Shown here piece by piece: positions 1-9,380 of a stretch of DNA of 64,000 nt; within the stretch, counting starts at the first letter, position 1; every line of letters starts with the position of its first letter. The notes beneath the pieces were generated by a model. That model had not been told where the DNA came from. It ran no database searches and was given only the letters and a program-made list of their open reading frames with translations. This DNA is from Citreicoccus inhibens (GTDB lineage: Bacteria; Myxococcota; Myxococcia; Myxococcales; Myxococcaceae): the NCBI RefSeq assembly GCF_019039035.1, contig NZ_JAHNZT010000002.1, forward strand, positions 186,001-250,000, read 5' to 3'. Position numbers and translations under genes: made by a program.

Positions 1-741
1 CGGTCCTTCCTCGCCGCGCGTCACCACGGCGAGATAGCGCCCGTGCTCGTCGTCATAGAGGCCCAGCGCCGTCGCGCGCGTCATCACGCTGCCCGCGGGG
101 AACGCGGTGGGCTCGGGCACGTGCGGCGCGTCCTGCTCGGGAGCGCCATGCGCCAGACGGCCTCCGAGCACGTCATCGCGCTCCAGGAGCCGGAAGGGGA
201 TGCCGCGGGTGGACAGCACGCGCGCGGCCTCCAGGCCCGCGGCGCCCGCGCCCACCACGGCCACGTGGGTGCGCAGCGTCTGGGCGGGGGGAAGCGGATC
301 CGCCGCCTCGCGCGGCAACAGGCCGAGGCCCGCCAGCTGACGGGCCACCTTGGCCATCACCGTCTCGGCCACCGGCACGCCCGCGAACATCTCGTGATGG
401 TCCAGCCCTTTGGGGAAGAACCAGTCGATGGTTTCGAACACATCCACCTTCGCGGAGGGGTAGGCGTTCTGCCGCTCCAGCTTCATGCCCGCCTGCGCGG
501 GCGTGCGGCACGTGTAGACGTTGGGCTGGCCATCCACTCGCATGAGGCAGTGCGAGCAGGCCGCGGCGAAGCAATACGGGCCGCGAGGTCGGTGGTACTT
601 CACGGAGCGGGCAAGCACGGACTCGCCCGCGGCGATGAGCGAGCACGCCACCGGTTCACCTTCGATGGCGGGAATGCTCTCGCCCTCGAGGTCCACGGTG
701 ATGGCCCTGCCGCGCGGAGGTACATCGGGGAGGCGTCGCAT
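1..741 (-). CDS. 2Fe-2S / FAD-dependent oxidoreductase, sarcosine oxidase alpha-like (partial)
   Basis: The ATG is at 741 and 247 codons are open to the left edge, so the C-terminal part is missing. Residues 15-90 form a plant-ferredoxin-like Fer2_4 domain with Cys57-x4-Cys62-x2-Cys65-x12-Cys78, which should hold one 2Fe-2S cluster. Residues 158-180 start an FAD/NAD(P) Rossmann fold with GAGAAG at 164-169. This order (Fer2_4, then a pyridine-nucleotide-disulphide oxidoreductase fold) is that of the alpha subunits of heterotetrameric sarcosine oxidase, opine oxidases and hydrogen cyanide synthase. No beta subunit gene is visible on the retained side. The substrate cannot be told from this fragment. 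It is probably cytoplasmic because no signal peptide is present. Confidence 0.8.
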   Translation of the reverse strand, partial: MRRLPDVPPRGRAITVDLEGESIPAIEGEPVACSLIAAGESVLARSVKYHRPRGPYCFAAACSHCLMRVDGQPNVYTCRTPAQAGMKLERQNAYPSAKVDVFETIDWFFPKGLDHHEMFAGVPVAETVMAKVARQLAGLGLLPREAADPLPPAQTLRTHVAVVGAGAAGLEAARVLSTRGIPFRLLERDDVLGGRLAHGAPEQDAPHVPEPTAFPAGSVMTRATALGLYDDEHGRYLAVVTRGEEGP

Positions 742-980
742 GGGTGGGCGCAAAATGGCGCACCCGGACCGGGTGGTCAAAGCCTGTCGCGACCCACGCA
801 CACACCCCCACGCGGGGCAGTCGACAGTGCGTGTGATGGAGCGCGCGACGTTCTCTTGTACGCACCGCCATGGCGCGGCGCGGTGTGCTGCCTCGCTCGG
901 GCCCCAAACGATTTCGGGGACCGCGACGGGCCGGTGCGGCTCCGTGGCGATCCCCGAAGGGTGCTGCTTGACGCGTTGAG

Positions 981-2486
981 CTAACCGGGCTGGACGGTGT
1001 TCTCGTCGCGGAAGATGGGCTCGGGGATTCCGCGCAGCCGCTGACCGAACCGGGTGCGGATGACGGCGCCGAACGCGGCGAGGATGGCGGCGATGTTGGC
1101 GAGCCAACCGAGCACCGGGACGTGGCCGAGCGCGAGGAGGATCGACAGGCCGAGCGCCAGCACCACCGCCTGCGTCTTGCGACCGCGCATCACCGGCAAC
1201 CGCGTGCCCACTTCGCTCGCCACCGCCGCGTAGCCGAGGGCCGCCGCGAGTGGCGCTACGATCCAGAGGAGCACGGCCACCGGGATGCCGATGAGCGTGA
1301 TGATGAGCACCAGCGTCAGCGGCACGAGCGCGATCGCCCCGAGGAAGCCCGCCATTCCACTCTGTAGCGGGCGGGTGCGGATCTCCTCGCCCAGCTCCTT
1401 CATCCGCGTGGGGAAGAAGAGCTGCCCCAGGAAGCCCAGGCCGAAGAGGACCGCGAACTGGAGGATGAAGCTCGCGAACCCATTGGAGCGGCCGTTGTCG
1501 TCGTCCTCGTCAGCGTCGCTGCTGGAGTCGTCCGAGTCCGAGTGCTTGCCCATGTCCCGGCTCTTCAGGTGGCGGCCGTTGCGAAGCTCGCGCAGGCCCT
1601 CCTTGAGCTCGCCGGCGACGACGCGGCCGATGCCCGCGCCGCCGAAGGACTCGGTGCTGCCGTCCACCTTGGCGCCCTCGGACTTCTGCACGGTGCCGCC
1701 GAAGGCCGAGACGTCGCCCTCCACCACGGCGTCGGGCCCGAGGATGACGTTGCCTCCGAAGGCGTGCGCGTCACCTTCCACGTGGCCGCGAATCTCCAGC
1801 GTTCCGCCGAAGGCCACCGCGTCATCCTCCACGTGGCCGTTCACGAGCAGGTTGCCGCCGTAGACGACGGCGCTCTCCACCGTCTCGCCCTCCTTGACCT
1901 CCAGGGACTGGCCGCGCGCGACCACGTTCTTGGAGCCTCGGCGACCCCCGCGCACCTCGTTCTGGGCCTGCTGGAGCTTCTCGCGCACCGCCTCGCGGAC
2001 CTGCTGGCGGATGTCCTCGAGGTCCTCGTTCTCCGGCGCGGCGTCGTCGGACTTCGCGCCCCCCTGCGCGGCGACGGCGGCCGGCTTGGGCGGAGCCGGC
2101 GGCGCGGGCGGGGCCACCGGCGCGGCGTCCTCCGGCGCGCTGCCCGCGGACTGCTCCTGCGCCGTCATGGGCCGCAGCGTGTAGATGGAGCCGTCCGCGT
2201 CGATGCGCAGCGAGTAGGCGCGGGCCACCGTGCGCAGGGCCTGCTCGGCGGTGACGCCGCGCAGTCGCACCTCGGCGGGCGTGTCCAGCGCGCCGGTGAC
2301 GACGATGTTGATGCCGCCCTTCTCGGCGATGGCCTTGAGCGCATCACGCAGCGTGCCGCGATAGCTCACGTCGATGGTGGGCGCGGCGGCGGCGACCGCG
2401 GGGGCCGGAGTGGGGGACTCGGCGCCGAGGGCGAGGGGGGCACCGAGCAGGAGGGCGGAGACGACGAGTCGCGAGGGGATTCTCAT
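981..2486 (-). CDS. Membrane protein with STN-like and polymer-forming (bactofilin-like) repeats
   Basis: 501 residues. An N-terminal signal peptide (about 1-22) is followed by an STN-like segment (about 38-107), the short domain found at the N terminus of secretins and TonB-dependent receptors. A Pro/Ala linker and an acidic-basic helical stretch follow. Residues about 195-285 form a right-handed-helix-like repeat in which VAFGG, HAFGG, SAFGG and SFGG recur every 15-20 residues, as in bactofilin/polymer-forming proteins. The C-terminal third (about 335-490) has three or four hydrophobic membrane segments. It lies 7 bases after the anti-sigma gene and is probably the third gene of the ECF operon, so it may be a sensor or target of that system. 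Placing STN, repeats and membrane segments on one chain suggests an envelope scaffold. The function is unproven. Confidence 0.75.
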   Translation of the reverse strand: MRIPSRLVVSALLLGAPLALGAESPTPAPAVAAAAPTIDVSYRGTLRDALKAIAEKGGINIVVTGALDTPAEVRLRGVTAEQALRTVARAYSLRIDADGSIYTLRPMTAQEQSAGSAPEDAAPVAPPAPPAPPKPAAVAAQGGAKSDDAAPENEDLEDIRQQVREAVREKLQQAQNEVRGGRRGSKNVVARGQSLEVKEGETVESAVVYGGNLLVNGHVEDDAVAFGGTLEIRGHVEGDAHAFGGNVILGPDAVVEGDVSAFGGTVQKSEGAKVDGSTESFGGAGIGRVVAGELKEGLRELRNGRHLKSRDMGKHSDSDDSSSDADEDDDNGRSNGFASFILQFAVLFGLGFLGQLFFPTRMKELGEEIRTRPLQSGMAGFLGAIALVPLTLVLIITLIGIPVAVLLWIVAPLAAALGYAAVASEVGTRLPVMRGRKTQAVVLALGLSILLALGHVPVLGWLANIAAILAAFGAVIRTRFGQRLRGIPEPIFRDENTVQPG

Positions 2487-2493
2487 GAGGCGC

Positions 2494-2997
2494 TCAGGCT
2501 TCGGTGAGGGAGGGGGAACCGCCGACGAGCCGCTTGAGTCCGAACAGCGAGGTGAGCAGCAAGAGGGCCAGGATGCCCGCGATGCTCACGCCCACCGTGC
2601 TCCACAGCGCATGGGCGCCGCTAAGGAGTCCTTCGAAGAACACCCGTCCGTTCACCACCGTGGAGGCCGCGGTGGTGCCCAGCCGGCCCAGGGCCCTGTC
2701 GTTGCTGATCAGGTACCCCAGTCCCATGGAAATCGACGTGACGAGGATGATGAGGCCGGACCAGACCTCGCGCTGCCGCGGCACGGGCTCTTCGGCGACC
2801 CGGGCCATGACGGAGGCGACCAGCGTGGGCGGCGGGAGCGGATCCGCCAGCCGGTACAGGTCCTGCTCCAACAGGCGGTGCTCCTCGAGGACTCCGGCGC
2901 AGGCGTCGCACTCGGCGGCGTGGTCCAGCGCGGGACCCTCGCCGGCCTCCAGCTCCGTGAAGAGCTGCTCCAGGTCCGGGCAGGGATGCGGGCTCAT
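2494..2997 (-). CDS. Anti-sigma factor (zinc-finger type) for the adjacent ECF sigma factor
   Basis: 167 residues. The N-terminal cytoplasmic part holds the zinc-binding anti-sigma signature His-x3-Cys-x2-Cys (HAAECDAC, about residues 26-33). A membrane segment around 80-100 and a second hydrophobic helix near 140-160 follow. The start codon overlaps the stop of the sigma gene (ATGA), giving translational coupling and a near 1:1 supply of the two proteins, as is usual for ECF/anti-sigma pairs. It should hold the sigma factor at the membrane until an envelope signal arrives. The downstream STN/bactofilin-like protein is the best candidate for a partner. Confidence 0.85.
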   Translation of the reverse strand: MSPHPCPDLEQLFTELEAGEGPALDHAAECDACAGVLEEHRLLEQDLYRLADPLPPPTLVASVMARVAEEPVPRQREVWSGLIILVTSISMGLGYLISNDRALGRLGTTAASTVVNGRVFFEGLLSGAHALWSTVGVSIAGILALLLLTSLFGLKRLVGGSPSLTEA

Positions 2998-3566
2998 GCG
3001 GACTCCTCCTCAGAGGGGGACATCTTCTTGCGGAGCTTCTCGCGGGCGCGGAACAGCCTGGCCATGATGGTGCCCGGCGCGCAGCCGAGGAGCTGGGCGA
3101 TCTCCTTCGTCGTGCGCTTCTGGACGTAGTAGAGCGCCAGCACTTCGCGGTCGTCCACGGAGAGGGTGTTCATCGCGGCCTCGAGCGACTGGCGCTCCTC
3201 GCGGGCGATGGCCCCTTCCTCCTGCGACGCCTCGCCGCTGGCGAGGACCTCCTTCATGGGCTCCAGCTCCTCGGTGCGCACCTTGGTGCGGCGGCGGAGC
3301 AGGTCCAGGCAGAGGTTCCGGGTGATGGCGAGCACCCACAGGTCGAACGGACGCGAGTCGTCATACCGGTGGAGGTTCTGGTAGGCGCGGAGCAGGGCCT
3401 CCTGCGCCACCTCGGCGGCCTCCGCCTCGCTCTGGAGCAGGCGCAGCGCCAGGCCGTACACCGGCCGCTGGACGCTGCGCACGAGTGCCGCGAAGGCGGA
3501 GGGGTCTCCCCGGCGGGCGGCCTGCACGTCCGCCGTCCAGGGGAGGGGGGCGGCTTCCTCAGCCAT
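2994..3566 (-). CDS. ECF (sigma-70 family) RNA polymerase sigma factor
   Basis: About 190 residues from the ATG at 3566; reading is open upstream to 3650. I chose 3566 because GGA sits six bases before it and the residues before it do not look like sigma protein. Region 2 is seen in ADVQAARRGDPSAFAALVRS and the following core-binding helix (VAQEALLRAYQNL). Region 4 contains the helix-turn-helix KEIAQLLGCAPGTIMARLFR near the C terminus. There is no C-terminal extension. It should direct core polymerase to its own promoter and to an envelope regulon, and is antagonised by the coupled anti-sigma factor. Confidence 0.9.
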   Translation of the reverse strand: MAEEAAPLPWTADVQAARRGDPSAFAALVRSVQRPVYGLALRLLQSEAEAAEVAQEALLRAYQNLHRYDDSRPFDLWVLAITRNLCLDLLRRRTKVRTEELEPMKEVLASGEASQEEGAIAREERQSLEAAMNTLSVDDREVLALYYVQKRTTKEIAQLLGCAPGTIMARLFRAREKLRKKMSPSEEESA

Positions 3567-3595
3567 CAACATTCCGATGGCCAGGGGCAGCGAGT

Positions 3596-3621
3596 CGAGG
3601 GCGAGTGAGTTCACGCCCTCG
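3596..3621 (-). repeat. 8-bp inverted repeat in the leader of the ECF sigma gene
   Basis: CGAGGGCG at 3596-3603 and its exact complement CGCCCTCG at 3614-3621 are separated by ten bases. The element lies 30 bases upstream of the chosen sigma start. It could be a leader hairpin or an operator. If translation started further upstream it would be inside the gene. Confidence 0.4.
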
Positions 3622-3662
3622 TCTACGGGAAATCCGCCCACCCATTGCAAACCGCGTCACAA

Positions 3663-5294
3663 TCACTTTTTCTTTCGTGATTTCAGGGCTTTGGCGGCCT
3701 TTTCCGCGCGTGCCTGTGCCTTGACGAGCTTGCGCTGGCGCTGCTTCTCCCGGAATCCGAGCGGAACAGCGGGCTCGGGAGGCGGGGGGGCGATGACCTC
3801 CGGCTCGGGCGCGGCGCGGCGCGGCCGGGCCGTGGGCGCGCGGGCGTCCTCTCGGGTCGGCGCCTCGGCGTGGGGCTCGGCCTTCGACCGGCGGGCGCTC
3901 CAGGCGGGCGCGCTGCTGGGACGGGCAGGGCGGCCGGATGGCGGGGCCTTGCTGGCGAGCGCGCGGTGGCGCGAGGGCCCTGCGTCCGACACGGGGGCCT
4001 TGGCTCCCGGGGCGCGGGGGCCGCTGGCGGCGCGAGCGCTGGCGCTCCGGGGCGGGGCCGCGGCCTCCAGCTCGGCGCGCAGCGGACGCTGGGTGGCGCG
4101 GATGGTTTCCGCCGAGTCCTCGGCGTACTCGAAGTGGAAGAGGCGCTTGACCACGAGGGTGGCGTAGGCGCCCGGCGGCAGGGTGAAGGCGACGTTGACC
4201 TTGATGTCGCCGCGGTTCACCTCGTCGTTCTGCGTGCGGCCCACGACGAGCTTGTGCGGGAACATCAGGAGCGGGCGCTCCTCGGACTTGAAGTAAAGCA
4301 TCCGAGGGGTCTCCTCGATGCTCAGGTCCTTGAGCGCGAGCTTCTCGCGACCCAGCACCCACTTCACCGCCTCCTCGATCTGCGGATTGGAGAAGGTGGT
4401 GTTGGGGCCGAGCAGGGGGAAGGTGGCGTCGCGCAGGGTGCGGAGCACCTCCGGGCTGGCGTCGCGGTGGTGCAGGAGCGTGCCGGCCTGGTAGCGCATG
4501 GGGAAGAGGTGCTCGCGCGGCATGAGCAGCTGGAGGTAGCGCCGCACGCCCTCGTTCCAGAGGTAGCTCTGGTACTCGAAGAGCATCATCGCTCGGTAGT
4601 CCGAGTCGATCTGCATGAAGGCGCGCACCCAGTCATTGGGGTAGTCGCGCAAGGAGCGCAGGACGCGGTGGTACTTGCGCGAGCCCTCGAAGGGGACGCG
4701 GGCGTCCCAGCGGCCCCAGTTGTCGCGCCAGAAGGCCTTCACCTTGGCGTCCTCGGTGCGATCCAACTCCGAGGGCTTGGCGAAGAAGTTGTGCAGCGCG
4801 GCCTCGAAGTCGCCCCGGATGAGGTCCTTGGCGATGAAGCCCTGGCCGTGCTTGAGCGAGCCGAAGCGCTGGCTGTCGAAGTAGTTGATGACCCCGAGGC
4901 GGTTGACCTCGGCGGCGGCCATGTTGAGGGGGCCGAGGGACTCCGGGCCCAGGGCGCGTACGGTGACGGAGAAACGGTTGGAGGTGATGTTGGCCGCGGA
5001 GAGGGCGCGGTCCGTCCGGCCCAGGTACTTCAGGCGCAGGTCGGGGTCCTGCATGTCCACGTCGGAGCCGTCCACCGCGATGAGCTGCTCGGTCCGACCC
5101 TGCTTGTCCTTGAGGCCGCAATAACTGATGGCGCCGGGCTTCAGGCCGAAGGCGTCACGGATACGTCCGACCGCGTCGAAGGTGGACAGCTTCTGCTTGT
5201 CCATGAGGTACACCCGGTGCTTCCCGGTGGGGACCTCGTCGAAGCGGTAGGACTCCTTCACCGAGAAGTCCTCGGGCTTTTGCTTGATTCGCAC
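3663..5294 (-). CDS. truD: tRNA pseudouridine synthase D with a long basic C-terminal tail
   Basis: 543 residues. TruD makes pseudouridine 13 in tRNA. The catalytic motif GLKDKQGRTEQ holds the nucleophilic Asp at residue 63. SNRFSVTVR (about 105-113) and YFDSQRFG (about 150) are the other conserved TruD blocks. The usual TruD length is about 350-420 residues, so the catalytic protein ends near residue 410. The remaining 130 or so residues are Ala/Pro/Arg/Lys-rich, low complexity, and end in a run of lysines. Such a tail could be an RNA- or ribosome-binding extension; this is inference. The start at 5294 gives the typical MRIKQKPEDF-like beginning. Confidence 0.93.
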   Translation of the reverse strand: MRIKQKPEDFSVKESYRFDEVPTGKHRVYLMDKQKLSTFDAVGRIRDAFGLKPGAISYCGLKDKQGRTEQLIAVDGSDVDMQDPDLRLKYLGRTDRALSAANITSNRFSVTVRALGPESLGPLNMAAAEVNRLGVINYFDSQRFGSLKHGQGFIAKDLIRGDFEAALHNFFAKPSELDRTEDAKVKAFWRDNWGRWDARVPFEGSRKYHRVLRSLRDYPNDWVRAFMQIDSDYRAMMLFEYQSYLWNEGVRRYLQLLMPREHLFPMRYQAGTLLHHRDASPEVLRTLRDATFPLLGPNTTFSNPQIEEAVKWVLGREKLALKDLSIEETPRMLYFKSEERPLLMFPHKLVVGRTQNDEVNRGDIKVNVAFTLPPGAYATLVVKRLFHFEYAEDSAETIRATQRPLRAELEAAAPPRSASARAASGPRAPGAKAPVSDAGPSRHRALASKAPPSGRPARPSSAPAWSARRSKAEPHAEAPTREDARAPTARPRRAAPEPEVIAPPPPEPAVPLGFREKQRQRKLVKAQARAEKAAKALKSRKKK

Positions 5295-5445
5295 GCCAGC
5301 CCCCTTAGCAGCGCGGGGGCGTGGTTAGAAGGGCGAGCCCCAGGAAAAGGGGGCCCGGACGCTGACCGGCCGTACAGGAGGCGTATCCGGACGTTCCCCC
5401 TGGCTTGGTGGCTCTGGTAGTGTCCGGCGCTCTGAGGATCCGCGC

Positions 5446-7107
5446 GTGAGCCAGGCACCCGCTCCATTCCCACCCAAGCCCGGGTCGCAGCTGCGTGGGC
5501 CGCACCTGACAGGGCGGTTCGCGGACGGCTCGCTTGGGGAGTTTCCGCTCGGCCCGAAGACGTCGCTCGGCCGCCACCCCTCCAACACGCTCCGTCTGGT
5601 GGACCGCGAGGTCTCCAAGGAACACGCCATCATCGAGCGCGTGGGCCGGGACTTCGTCCTGAAGGACCTGGGGTCCTCGAACGGGACCTTCGTCAACGGC
5701 CGCAAGGTGCTGGAGCTGAAGCTGCGGGACGGGGACGAGATTGCCCTGGGCGCCTCGCGGCTCGTCTTCCACAGCGGCGAGCCGCCGGCGGCCAGCAACA
5801 CCGCGCCCACCATGCCGGGCGTGACAGTGGTCGCCCACTCGGTCTCCGTGCCGGCGTTCCTGGCGCAGATGGACGCGGTGCCGCAGAACTTCCGGCCGGC
5901 CGAGCAGGTGACGGACACGGAGGCGCTGCGCCGGGACTACGAGAAGCTGCGCATCGCGCACGAGTTCCACCGGCAGGTGACGGTCCAGGGGCGGCAGCAG
6001 GACCTGTTCGATCAGATCCTCAAGGTGGCCTTCCAGCTTTTGGCCGCGGACCACGGCGTCATCCTCAAGGTGGCGGACGGCCAGTTCATCCCGGTGGCGG
6101 TGCAGCACCGGCAGGGCCGGCAGGCCAACGTGATGCTGTCCGACACGGTGCTCAAGCGCGTGGTGGAGACGCGCAAGGCCGTGCTGACGGCGGACGCCAT
6201 CATCGACGAGCGCTTCAGCGCCGCGGAGAGCATCGTCGCGCAGGGCATCCGCTCGGCCATGGCCGTGCCGCTGATGGTCAACGAGAAGCTCCAGGCGGTG
6301 CTGTTCCTGGACAGCCGGCAGCAGATCAACGCCTTCTCCGAGAAGGACCTGGCCATCCTCTCCGGCATCGCCGCTCAGGCCGGCATCGCGCTGGAGAACG
6401 CGGCGCTGGCCGAGCAGATCCGCGCCGAGGCAGTGACGCGCGCCGAGCTGTCGCGCTTCCTGTCCAAGGCGGTGGCGGACGCGGTGATCAACGGTGGGAC
6501 GGAGGACCTGCGCCAGAGCCGGCTCGCGGAGGTCAGCTGCCTGTTCGCGGACATCCGGGGGTTCACCACCCTGGCGGAGAACGATTCGCCGCAGGAGGTG
6601 GTGTCCATGCTCAACGCCTTCTTCACGGCGATGGCGGACGTGGTGTTCCGCTACGAGGGCAACCTGGACAAGTTCATCGGGGACTGCGTGATGGCCGTGT
6701 GGGGCCCGCCGTCCTCGCACCCGGATGATCCGGGCCGAGCGCTGCGCGCCGCGCTGGAGATGCAGGACGCCGTGACGGAGCTCAACCGGCAGCGCGTGCT
6801 GGCGGGCAAGCGCCCCATCGAGGTGGGCATCGGCGTCAACACGGGTCAGGCGGTTGTCGGCTACATGGGCAGCGCCGAGCGGCACGAGTTCACCGCCATC
6901 GGCGACACCGTGAACACCGCATCGCGCCTGTGCGGACTGGCCAAGAGCGGCGAGGTGCTGGCCTCGGAGATGACCGTGCGCAAGGCGGGCCCGGGCTTCG
7001 ACGTGGAGGCGCTGCCGGTCCTACAGGTGAAGGGCAAGGAGAAGGGCGTCCAGACGTACCGCGTCCACGGCGCCGAGCTGACCACCTCCACCTCGCGTCG
7101 CGCATGA
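5446..7107 (+). CDS. FHA-GAF-class III adenylate cyclase
   Basis: 553 residues, GTG start at 5446 with GAGG eight bases before it. Residues about 25-110 are an FHA phosphothreonine-binding domain (GRHPSN, SKEH, GSSNGT motifs). About 180-330 is a GAF domain. About 355-535 is a class III nucleotide cyclase with metal-binding Asp369 and Asp413, purine-contacting Lys409 paired with a Thr in FTAIGD, and the transition-state Asn/Arg of VNTASRL. The Lys/Thr pair occurs in known adenylate cyclases such as cyanobacterial CyaB1, so cAMP is the likely product. The FHA domain suggests recruitment by a phosphorylated protein, and the next gene, overlapping by four bases, is a Ser/Thr kinase. No membrane segment is visible. 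Confidence 0.9.
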   Translation: MSQAPAPFPPKPGSQLRGPHLTGRFADGSLGEFPLGPKTSLGRHPSNTLRLVDREVSKEHAIIERVGRDFVLKDLGSSNGTFVNGRKVLELKLRDGDEIALGASRLVFHSGEPPAASNTAPTMPGVTVVAHSVSVPAFLAQMDAVPQNFRPAEQVTDTEALRRDYEKLRIAHEFHRQVTVQGRQQDLFDQILKVAFQLLAADHGVILKVADGQFIPVAVQHRQGRQANVMLSDTVLKRVVETRKAVLTADAIIDERFSAAESIVAQGIRSAMAVPLMVNEKLQAVLFLDSRQQINAFSEKDLAILSGIAAQAGIALENAALAEQIRAEAVTRAELSRFLSKAVADAVINGGTEDLRQSRLAEVSCLFADIRGFTTLAENDSPQEVVSMLNAFFTAMADVVFRYEGNLDKFIGDCVMAVWGPPSSHPDDPGRALRAALEMQDAVTELNRQRVLAGKRPIEVGIGVNTGQAVVGYMGSAERHEFTAIGDTVNTASRLCGLAKSGEVLASEMTVRKAGPGFDVEALPVLQVKGKEKGVQTYRVHGAELTTSTSRRA

Positions 7108-9380
7108 GCACGACGCGGCAGGCCTGCCCCAACTGCGGCGTGGTGCACGACACGCGGGTGTACGTGAGCGGCCAGAAGGTGGCCTGCCGTTGCGGCATCC
7201 GCTTCGAGGTCCGTCGCAACGACGTCTCCCTCATCCGGCCCGCGGCGCGGCTGGAGGAGGGGCAGGCCACCCTCGTCCCGCACCCCGCGGAGCCTCCGGC
7301 GCAGAGGCCCGCCCAGGTGCCGAGCGAGGCGTCGGTGTCACTTTCCGCCGGCTCGGGTGTTTCTCCCGCCATGGACGCGAGCGAACCCGCGCGCGCGGGT
7401 CGACCGGGCGGGGACGAGGTGGGTGGAACTGCTCCCGTGGGGGGGGCCTGGGCACCCGTGTCCCGAGAGCCCTCGGGAGTCGCGCTGCCCTCCACGCCCG
7501 GCGTGGAGGACGCGGCGGGCGCCGGTGCGGCCACCCTGGTGCGCGGCTCTGCGCCTGGGTCCGCGTCGTCGGCCGTGACGCCGGTGGCGAGCGGGGCGGA
7601 GGAGGGCGCGGAGACGTTCGTGGCGGCGCCTCGGCCCGAGCTGCCGGGCTTCGAGTTGCAAGAGGTGCTGGGGCGGGGCGGGATGGGCGAGGTGTGGCGC
7701 GCGCGACAGCAGTCGCTCGGGCGTACGGTGGCGGTGAAGCTGTTGCCGCCGCGGCTCGCCAAGGATCCGGAGTTCGTCACCCGCTTCGAGAAGGAGGCCA
7801 CCGCGCTGGCGGCGCTGAGCCACCCGCACATCGTGCAGATCATCGACCGGGGCGTGGTGGGCGAGCACTACTACTTCGTCATGGAGTACGTGGAGGGCCG
7901 CTCGCTGCGCGAGGCGATGAGCACGGGCGAGGGCCTCACGCCGCAGCAGACGCTGAAGCTGCTGCTCCAGGTGTCGCGCGCCATCGAGTGCGCGCACGAC
8001 AAGGGCATCATCCACCGCGACCTCAAGCCGGAGAACATCCTGCTGGACGCGCGCGGCCACGTGAAGGTCGCGGACTTCGGGTTGGCGGGCATCCGGCAGC
8101 CGGACTCGCGCCTGCAGCTGACCGCGACCGCGGTGGCCATGGGGACGCTCAATTACATGGCGCCCGAGCAGCGCCGCGACGCGAAGAACGTGGACGGGCG
8201 CGCGGACCTCTTCTCCCTGGGGGTCATGCTCTACGAGGCGCTCACCGGCGAGCTGCCGCTGGGCCGCTTCAAGCTGCCCTCGGCACGCGTCCCCGGGTTG
8301 GATCCCCGCGTGGACGCCGTGGTGGAGCGCCTGCTGGAGACGGAGCCCGCCGCCCGCTACGCGAACGCCGGTGAGGTGTGCGCGGCGTTGGAGGTAATGG
8401 TCTCCAGTTCGTCCGCGCCGGCGCTGGCGCTGGGGGACTCCGCGCGGGCGTTTCCGTCGGGGACGCCTCGGGCGCGCAGCGAGCTGACGCGGCGGCTGCG
8501 GCTGGGTTGGCGGCGCGTGCGCGCGGGCCTGTCCGTGGTGGGCGGGCTGGCGCTCCTGGGGCTCACCGTGCGGTGGGCCGTGGGGCCCGTGAGCCTGCAC
8601 GTGGGCCAGGATGACAAGGTCGTCATCGGCACCCAGGGCGTGAAGGTCCGGCCGGGCACTCAGCCCTGGCCTCCCAACACGGAAGGCGAGGTGTTTGCCT
8701 CGGCCAACGTGGTGGAGGGCCCGGGCGGCACCACGCGGTTCGAGGTGGGCTTCGACGCGGGCGAAGAGGAGCTCAACGTCCACAGCGGCGAGTGGAAGAT
8801 GCAGGATGGGCAGCTCCAGGCGCGCCAGGGCGGCAAGGAGACGGACGGGCATCGCCTGGTGCCGCGCGCGTACGTGGCCCACCGCTACTTCATGAGCGAC
8901 GACTTCACGTCCGAGGTGCTCATGGACGTGAAGCCGCTGGGGCCGGCCTATCCCGAGGAGCCGGACGCGCAGCACTTCGGTGAGCTGGCCTTCCGCATCA
9001 AGGATCTCCAGGTGTCCGCCTTCGCCATCCCCGAGGTGGGCATGCGGCTGTCCTGGCGCTACATCACCGACGCGGGGCAGGAGATTGTCGGCAACAGCGC
9101 GCAGGACCTGGACAACATGGTGGCGGACGAGATGCCGCTGCCCACGCACGGGCCCTTCCTCGTGCGACTCCAGCTCCGGCGCCTGAAGAGCGACGCCGTG
9201 AAGGTGGAGGCGTTCCTCAACAACCAGCTGTTCGCGAGCAAGGTGCTGCCCGGCTTCCAAGGGCGCGTGGGCAAGGTGGCGCTCGGCTGCCGCAACCTCG
9301 CGTGCACCTTCGATGACCTCAAGGTGCGGGGCGTGCTGGGCGCTCGGCCCGCGCGCAAGGTGGCCGCGGGCATCGAGTAG
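7104..9380 (+). CDS. Membrane Ser/Thr protein kinase with N-terminal zinc ribbon
   Basis: 758 residues from the ATG that overlaps the cyclase stop (ATGA). A zinc-ribbon-like segment (about 8-37; CPNCG then CRC) comes first, followed by a Pro/Ala-rich linker. The Hanks-type kinase domain spans about 179-431 with the GRGGMGEVW glycine loop, the VAVK lysine, HRDLKPEN with catalytic Asp306, DFG and APE. One membrane helix lies near 474-495. The external C-terminal part (about 500-758) is beta-rich and looks like a concanavalin/LamG-like sensor fold, but I cannot assign it firmly. Coupling to the FHA-cyclase suggests that kinase output is read by the cyclase's FHA domain. Confidence 0.9.
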   Translation: MSTTRQACPNCGVVHDTRVYVSGQKVACRCGIRFEVRRNDVSLIRPAARLEEGQATLVPHPAEPPAQRPAQVPSEASVSLSAGSGVSPAMDASEPARAGRPGGDEVGGTAPVGGAWAPVSREPSGVALPSTPGVEDAAGAGAATLVRGSAPGSASSAVTPVASGAEEGAETFVAAPRPELPGFELQEVLGRGGMGEVWRARQQSLGRTVAVKLLPPRLAKDPEFVTRFEKEATALAALSHPHIVQIIDRGVVGEHYYFVMEYVEGRSLREAMSTGEGLTPQQTLKLLLQVSRAIECAHDKGIIHRDLKPENILLDARGHVKVADFGLAGIRQPDSRLQLTATAVAMGTLNYMAPEQRRDAKNVDGRADLFSLGVMLYEALTGELPLGRFKLPSARVPGLDPRVDAVVERLLETEPAARYANAGEVCAALEVMVSSSSAPALALGDSARAFPSGTPRARSELTRRLRLGWRRVRAGLSVVGGLALLGLTVRWAVGPVSLHVGQDDKVVIGTQGVKVRPGTQPWPPNTEGEVFASANVVEGPGGTTRFEVGFDAGEEELNVHSGEWKMQDGQLQARQGGKETDGHRLVPRAYVAHRYFMSDDFTSEVLMDVKPLGPAYPEEPDAQHFGELAFRIKDLQVSAFAIPEVGMRLSWRYITDAGQEIVGNSAQDLDNMVADEMPLPTHGPFLVRLQLRRLKSDAVKVEAFLNNQLFASKVLPGFQGRVGKVALGCRNLACTFDDLKVRGVLGARPARKVAAGIE

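Follow-up and report, generated by a model that had tools for sequence, protein, structure and literature searches.

An FHA-GAF nucleotide cyclase gene overlapping a zinc-ribbon receptor kinase gene: a conserved myxobacterial pair and putative route to cAMP

A cyclase gene and a receptor kinase gene form a conserved pair

In the 64,000-nucleotide stretch of Citreicoccus inhibens DNA analysed here (NCBI RefSeq assembly GCF_019039035.1, contig NZ_JAHNZT010000002.1, positions 186,001 to 250,000 of the forward strand; hereafter the window), the gene of an FHA-GAF-class III nucleotide cyclase overlaps that of a transmembrane Ser/Thr kinase with an N-terminal zinc ribbon (Table 1). We propose, with a probability of roughly 0.55 and on grounds of sequence comparison, that both genes encode one signalling unit, in which the kinase autophosphorylates, the FHA domain docks and the output of the cyclase is altered, giving cyclic AMP (cAMP). 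Conservation of the pair had been suggested as a check in an earlier note on this DNA. Indeed, the kinase gene was found directly downstream of the cyclase gene in 90 of 96 genomes of the family, and the pair also occurs in other orders of the phylum. Genomes, contigs, loci, genera and families carry our own handles (G, C, L, g and f), and published papers are cited by PMC number.

The four Pfam matches (FHA, GAF and Guanylate_cyc in the cyclase, Pkinase in the kinase) all lie well over the cut-offs, and the Guanylate_cyc score of 101.6 bits, against a Pfam cut-off of 21.9, identifies a class III cyclase. The FHA motif as defined in PMC1262709 and PMC4238996 (GR, SxxH, NG) is complete. Its positions that bind phosphothreonine (pThr), R43, S57, H60, N79 and G80, are invariant in 77/77 aligned cyclases, which bears out the FHA reader that the earlier note had seen next to a GAF domain. 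The catalytic residues D369, K409, D413, T483, N490 and R494 are invariant in the same 77 sequences. We take D369 and D413 to serve the metal, K409 and T483 the base, and N490 and R494 the transition state; the combination of K409 and T483 presumably favours ATP as substrate. Most of the nearest catalytic domains of known structure carry the name adenylate cyclase, the top solved match of the cyclase being a bacteriophytochrome-cyclase chimera (6fht), and the product is probably cAMP. A clear membrane helix was not found in the cyclase (best 19-residue hydropathy 1.40). Its closest named relatives are from Corallococcus, Myxococcus, Pyxidicoccus, Hyalangium and Archangium.

The cyclase stop and the kinase start overlap, as the earlier note had it; they share the letters ATGA, and the two open reading frames (ORFs) occupy different reading frames. 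Among 69 pairs with a measurable gap, the overlap was -4 in 24 and -1 in 10 (34/69 together); L099 was left out of the -4 count, having no standard start at that place. Short gene overlaps alone are common in bacteria. Overlap and pairing rise above chance here because they are conserved across relatives, and the overlap suggests that the two genes are translationally coupled.

The kinase has the residues of an active Hanks-type Ser/Thr kinase: K212, E231, D306 and D324 are invariant in 68/68 aligned kinases, as are the activation-loop T340 and the four cysteines of the ribbon, and T342 is kept in 62/68. Eight K/R residues lie in the 20 positions before the membrane helix and one in the 20 after it. 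By the positive-inside rule, the kinase domain should thus face the cytoplasm and the C-terminal domain the exterior. The architecture of ribbon, membrane helix and outer beta-rich domain that had been read from the letters was therefore recovered in cysteine conservation, hydropathy and predicted fold. The protein scores below the cut-off of the PASTA kinase model (PknB_PASTA_kin, 281.6 bits against 450, with the best stretch only at aa 183-439).

Table 1. Features at the locus (window positions).
Feature	Position	Strand	Basis or remark
FHA-GAF-class III nucleotide cyclase gene	5446..7107	+	GTG start, 553 aa; ORF and Pfam domains
FHA domain, aa 39-102	5560..5751	+	Pfam 6.2e-19
Thr127 codon, GVTVV motif directly after FHA domain	5824..5826	+	candidate phospho-site or short beta strand
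GAF domain, aa 185-316	5998..6393	+	Pfam 1.7e-17
Class III cyclase catalytic domain (Guanylate_cyc), aa 358-541	6517..7068	+	Pfam 5.2e-29
ATGA overlap, kinase start and cyclase stop	7104..7107	+	sequence
Zinc-ribbon transmembrane Ser/Thr kinase gene	7104..9380	+	ATG start, 758 aa; ORF; Pfam Pkinase 1.4e-49
N-terminal zinc ribbon, Cys 8, 11, 28, 30	7125..7193	+	read from sequence
Low-complexity linker of kinase, ~137 residues	7230..7640	+	motifs at T56 (codon 7269), T144 (7533), T171 (7614)
Kinase domain (Pkinase), aa 183-387	7650..8264	+	Pfam
Membrane helix, aa 475-493	8526..8582	+	hydropathy about 1.6; sole likely helix of kinase
Outer domain, predicted concanavalin-like beta sandwich, core aa 528-746	8583..9377	+	AF2, Foldseek, VIA
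truD, divergent neighbour upstream	3663..5294	-	Pfam TruD 1.3e-56
ECF-type sigma factor	2994-3650	-	window
Small membrane protein, His/Cys-rich N-terminus	2494-2997	-	window
Protein with weak bactofilin and STN matches	981-2486	-	window

The outer domain is predicted to have a lectin-like fold

The outer domain of the kinase gave no Pfam match. An AF2 model built from 44 sequences was all-beta (pLDDT 85, pTM 0.83). Its best Foldseek match was the CBM66 entry 4b1m (E 1.9e-6, TM by target 0.70, 14% identity), and VIA aligned it to galactocerebrosidase, CBM66, GH16 and GH43 entries with Z about 15-17 over about 150-180 residues, the rows covering chiefly model residues 42-252. The predicted model thus has the concanavalin-like lectin/glucanase fold, at 6-14% identity among the matches listed, and at a guess the ligand might be a carbohydrate. 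Near the end of the domain, Cys729 and Cys734 stand in columns that are invariant in the 44 aligned domains, which would fit a disulphide formed outside the cytoplasm. Rows for clostridial neurotoxin binding domains also appeared in the fold search. A toxin reading was rejected, as they share the beta-sandwich only (8-11% identity, root mean square deviation about 6-12 A).

Thr motifs in the kinase linker are candidate docking sites

The linker between the zinc ribbon and the kinase domain aligns poorly among relatives. In 62 linkers, the motif T[LVMIF][VLIMF] was observed 88 times (in 39 of the linkers), where shuffling gave 13.4 ± 3.7; the Ser version was found 15 times against 22 expected and the Ala version 6 times against 31. 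As related sequences inflate such counts, one linker was drawn per genus (28 genera). The Thr motif then came to 21.5 against 4.4 ± 2.0 expected, and the controls to 4.4 against 6.1 (Ser), 2.8 against 10.0 (Ala) and 1.5 against 4.4 (reversed motif). Eighteen linkers from 13 other kinases of this genome contained 5 motifs (3.2 ± 1.8 expected). The excess over chance is real; its independence is not, the genera being themselves related. FHA domains prefer pThr to pSer. Since the excess is specific for Thr, the linker motifs, three of which are present in the window kinase (T56, T144, T171), are good candidates for FHA docking sites; they may also be a substrate motif of the kinase or have a role unrelated to FHA.

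In the proposed mechanism, a ligand bound by the lectin-like domain would dimerise or cluster the membrane kinase, which would then autophosphorylate on the activation loop and on linker sites of the Thr-hydrophobic-hydrophobic type. One of these pThr residues would be bound by the FHA domain of the cyclase made alongside, so that the cyclase would be held at the membrane next to the kinase. Its output as a homodimer would then change, through phosphorylation or clustering, and with it the level of cAMP. Our guess for the sign of control is activation. A more specific version, which we offer as tentative and on the whole doubtful, is a switch gated by glycans: binding of the outer domain to a polysaccharide (of the own matrix, of prey or of a cell wall) would cluster the kinase, the linker with its several pThr sites would gather FHA-cyclases, and the dimeric cyclase would fire. 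If true, a Hanks-type receptor kinase would lead directly to cAMP in bacteria, with an old kinase-cyclase core of the Myxococcota that is kept even in reduced genomes.

GarA and OdhI, stand-alone FHA proteins that act on metabolic enzymes, are FHA switches controlled by kinases. They are the nearest solved relatives of the FHA domain of the cyclase, which unlike them is part of a larger protein, and they suggest a different use of the same parts: a Thr in the cyclase itself would be phosphorylated by the kinase, and the FHA domain would fold back on it and close or open the cyclase, so that the linker would not be a docking site. T127 is the best candidate for this. It lies in GVTVV, a motif like those of the kinase linker, right after the FHA domain and is kept in 67/77 cyclases within an otherwise poorly conserved linker. 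We consider such a switch in cis unlikely. The stretch is modelled weakly, as a short strand (block of pLDDT 53-58), and T127 may be structural; g23 and f2 retain the pair without it, and 5 of 7 cyclases without an adjacent kinase have it. Moreover, a switch in cis leaves the linker motifs of the kinase unexplained.

Linkage of the pair in the family and beyond

In the 96 family genomes the kinase was sought by its membrane helix and outer domain. An orthologue of the cyclase was present in 95 of them (G083 had no match) and helix plus outer domain in 88. In 86 of the 88 genomes with both, these followed the cyclase on its own contig and strand at a distance of 1.05-2.11 kb. G088 has the kinase on one contig with the final portion of the cyclase (L106), and the two genes are split between contigs in G022. 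In the reduced genomes G084-G086 (2.1-2.7 Mb), a ribbon kinase without outer domain directly follows the cyclase. Besides the 90 linked pairs, the family sample thus comprises three cyclases without adjacent kinase, two contig-end cases (G022, G051) and the genome without cyclase.

In the order, the cyclase was matched in 114/145 genomes at 1e-100; at this threshold, 18 listed genomes of family f3 had no match, 11 further matchless genomes of the order being unlisted. The kinase follows the cyclase in 5/5 loci read in f2 (gap 42-537 nucleotides) and in G134, G136 and G137. In G139 the ribbon begins before the contig ends, and the contig of G138 ends before the kinase place. Across the phylum, 142 of 195 genomes searched had a cyclase match at 1e-120 (21-row profile). 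Outside the order, 26 loci were read. A kinase motif lay 631-895 nucleotides past the cyclase stop on the same strand in 13, 12 of them with the ribbon by pattern, and four loci end within 0.45 kb. The full pair is present in Myxococcus xanthus strain AM003 (L199).

Several observations weigh against one obligate unit. The cyclases of G045, G081 and G082 have no kinase motif within 4 kb; the best kinase match in G081 and G082 is a paralogue without ribbon, and the best matches in G045 and G132 are weak (1.8e-45 and 3.2e-43). The kinase is not adjacent in G132, G133 and G135, and in G133 and G135 the ribbon kinase sits unlinked elsewhere (L179, L180). Nine of the 26 loci outside the order lack the kinase at this place (L153 with only 1.06 kb readable). 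In relatives from other phyla (by record title), FHA was present by pattern and 0/10 had a kinase within about 3 kb downstream; two further relatives, L236 and L238, show none in the readable 1.4-1.5 kb. FHA-cyclases without kinase in other phyla imply that the FHA domain did not arise for this kinase. Within the single-contig genome G059 (L089) the kinase frame is broken, with tblastn pieces overlapping at aa 314-356, and the cyclase is intact; the kinase may be dispensable there, or the break may come from sequencing. Fourteen of 28 genera (g10, g12, g14, g16, g18, g23-g28, g30, g39, g40) lack the linker motif, and the loss of T127 in g23 and f2 counts here too. In three lineages, therefore, the cyclase is present and a close relative of this kinase was not found, and in two both genes are present but unlinked, which argues against an obligate pair.

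The outer domain is not universal either. By length and sequence it is absent in g23 (3/3 read), f2 (4/4 read to the end) and f6 (3/3): the g23 kinases stop shortly past the hydrophobic stretch, those of f2 read to the end have a short tail, and by eye those of f6 have no hydrophobic stretch of that sort. It is present in the kinases of f7 (G137) and f5 (G133, unlinked). The lasting core, as far as these loci tell, is the cyclase and the zinc-ribbon kinase without outer domain. The earlier note had spoken of a complete route from an outside signal to cAMP. The parts, their intact residues and the linkage speak for it; its completeness suffers from the loss of the outer domain in g23, f2 and f6 and from cyclases that persist without this kinase in some lineages.

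The same cyclases invite a reading in which the two proteins are merely produced together: FHA would read pThr made by other kinases, and this kinase would have other targets. There are 95 kinase-like places in this genome, some lineages have kept the cyclase but not this kinase, and FHA-GAF-cyclases of other phyla have no kinase neighbours. The kept order of the genes in those 90 family genomes, in distant orders and also in genomes of 2.1-2.7 Mb makes us regard co-production alone as rather improbable. The pThr-binding residues are intact also in 7 aligned cyclases without adjacent kinase, which presumably serve another kinase. The FHA-GAF-cyclase seems older and wider than the pair, and the partnership with the kinase typical of Myxococcota, though not universal there. 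Loss of FHA where the kinase is missing was considered, as a first pattern was negative at several distant loci, and rejected after FHA had been seen by reading and by Pfam on L152, L037 and L053.

Many cyclases carry a zinc ribbon of their own ahead of FHA (L037-L039, L043-L048, L050, L052, L053, L055, L081, L105), of a different type from that of the kinase. The idea, suggested by L037-L039, that the ribbon had moved from kinase to cyclase after kinase loss was rejected because cyclases adjoining a ribbon kinase also have one (L046-L048, L050, L053, L055, L081); it looks ancestral. A cyclase-kinase fusion in G093 and G095 (open frames of 1230 and 1231 aa) was rejected as well, because a TGA separates both genes in each and the cyclase gives 562 aa. 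G010 has a second cyclase copy (L056, G010:C6:28000-37500), 58-59% identical, with no kinase motif within 4 kb. The reduced genomes G084-G086 (L040-L042) keep 3 cyclase places and 22-27 kinase-like places besides the kinase-cyclase pair. The pair also occurs, with a cyclase 87% identical to this one, in record BNCN01000004.1 (L194), whose title, Comamonas sp. KCTC 72670, seems mistaken for what looks like the genome of a myxobacterium.

Comparison with known kinase-FHA and kinase-cyclase systems

A kinase with an FHA partner at one locus is established in mycobacteria (PknB-Rv0019c, PknF-Rv1747, PknH-EmbR), where the gene of a Ser/Thr kinase lies beside that of the FHA protein it phosphorylates or binds (PMC4238996). 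Those partners act as a transcription factor, an ABC transporter and an adaptor, whereas here the FHA protein is a nucleotide cyclase. PknB, PknF and PknH are, we assume, without zinc ribbon and lectin-like domain. PpkA-Fha1 of type VI secretion is likewise a Ser/Thr kinase with an FHA substrate (PMC6213207), but controls secretion with no second messenger. The arrangement of a kinase and a neighbouring FHA protein is thus known, and the cAMP output appears to be new.

Kinase and cyclase-like domain are tied in one chain in Pkn2 of M. xanthus (PMC1262709) and in the TOMM kinase/cyclase fusion (TIGR03903), whereas here they are encoded by two genes, which scored 38.5 and 151.7 bits against the TIGR03903 cut-off of 705.75 bits. 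CyaA and CyaB of M. xanthus are also myxobacterial adenylyl cyclases, but of the receptor type, and osmosensing (PMC7643160), whereas the cyclase described here has no clear membrane helix. GAF-cyclases such as CyaB1 of Anabaena and cyanobacterial FHA-cyclases share the layout of regulatory domain, linker helix and class III cyclase. We know of no neighbouring kinase partner for either. One paper considered as an FHA-cyclase precedent was rejected, as it uses a cyclase two-hybrid assay (PMC12034629). Among the open-licence papers searched, which omit most of those in subscription journals, we found neither a direct connection of receptor kinases to cAMP nor a ribbon receptor kinase whose conserved partner is an FHA-cyclase encoded by its own gene.

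If the proposal of one signalling unit is right, the pair joins receptor kinases directly to cAMP. To our knowledge, few Ser/Thr kinases of M. xanthus have known substrates and myxobacterial cyclases are mostly without known inputs. The pair gives a widely conserved kinase a named, testable partner with defined residues, also in the genetically tractable M. xanthus. That organism has 99 Ser/Thr kinases (PMC6791715).

Other kinase-cyclase links in the genome

The genome (G000; 9.05 Mb, about 71% G+C) has 14 cyclase places. Only 4 of them have a kinase place within 5 kb, in each case within 350 nucleotides, and one of the four is the pair described here. At another a second FHA-GAF-cyclase gene (571 aa) is followed on the same strand, after about 85 nucleotides, by a kinase gene of 1229 aa (L285, G000:C68:432500-440500, 722-6212, minus). 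By eye, the metal Asp, Lys, Asn and Arg of this cyclase are replaced; it looks like the catalytically inactive pseudo-cyclase of a sister pair. An FHA-cyclase can thus adjoin a kinase for another reason than making cAMP, which is a further point against our proposal.

This degenerate cyclase would suit a reverse flow of information, in which the cyclase protein, its GAF domain sensing a ligand, docks by FHA on the kinase and adjusts its activity, with cAMP in a secondary role. FHA proteins that act on their kinases are described: MupFHA lowers the autophosphorylation of PknQ and EmbR2 inhibits PknH (PMC4238996). We give this reading only a slight chance. The six catalytic residues of the window's cyclase family are invariant throughout, so its product should matter.

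At the third of the four places, an 843-aa ORF joins a kinase domain, a cyclase domain and a membrane stretch (L284, G000:C68:301500-309500, 3277-5808, plus), a layout like that of M. xanthus Pkn2 as described in PMC1262709. At the fourth, on C39, the cyclase match and the adjoining kinase match report the same open frame length (1490 aa). A first result, no cyclase near other kinases (strict signature, 20 regions, kinase parsed in 13/20), was rejected, as Pfam shows a cyclase domain next to the kinase in one of these regions (L272, on C39). Five more distant FHA-cyclase paralogues were read in family genomes (L174-L178); L177 alone has a kinase motif, 607 nucleotides downstream and with no ribbon. 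Kinase and cyclase are thus joined repeatedly, which speaks for a functional link between them and at the same time makes this pair less of a special case. Domains that bind cyclic nucleotide monophosphates were matched at 24 places in the genome, and at 6-7 places in the reduced genomes, so possible receivers for cAMP are present.

The ribbon-less paralogue of the kinase (L184, G000:C43:48000-55500; L181, L182, L183) is 48-58% identical in the kinase region and has a membrane helix and a C-terminal domain with a similar two-Cys end. A GAF-like gene lies just upstream of it in this genome, and the locus is possibly a sister module.

Neighbourhood of the pair

The divergent upstream neighbour truD was matched in 68/81 loci, the window included; it is conserved beside the pair and is not thought to be part of it. 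A scan for promoters and terminators at the locus gave nothing above shuffles. Downstream of the kinase lies a gene with a YceI domain, matched in 2/81 loci, which is no fair test, most stretches ending about 0.8 kb past the kinase. Farther upstream, the three minus-strand genes at the end of Table 1 (981-3650) look like an extracytoplasmic function (ECF) sigma factor operon with its anti-sigma factor.

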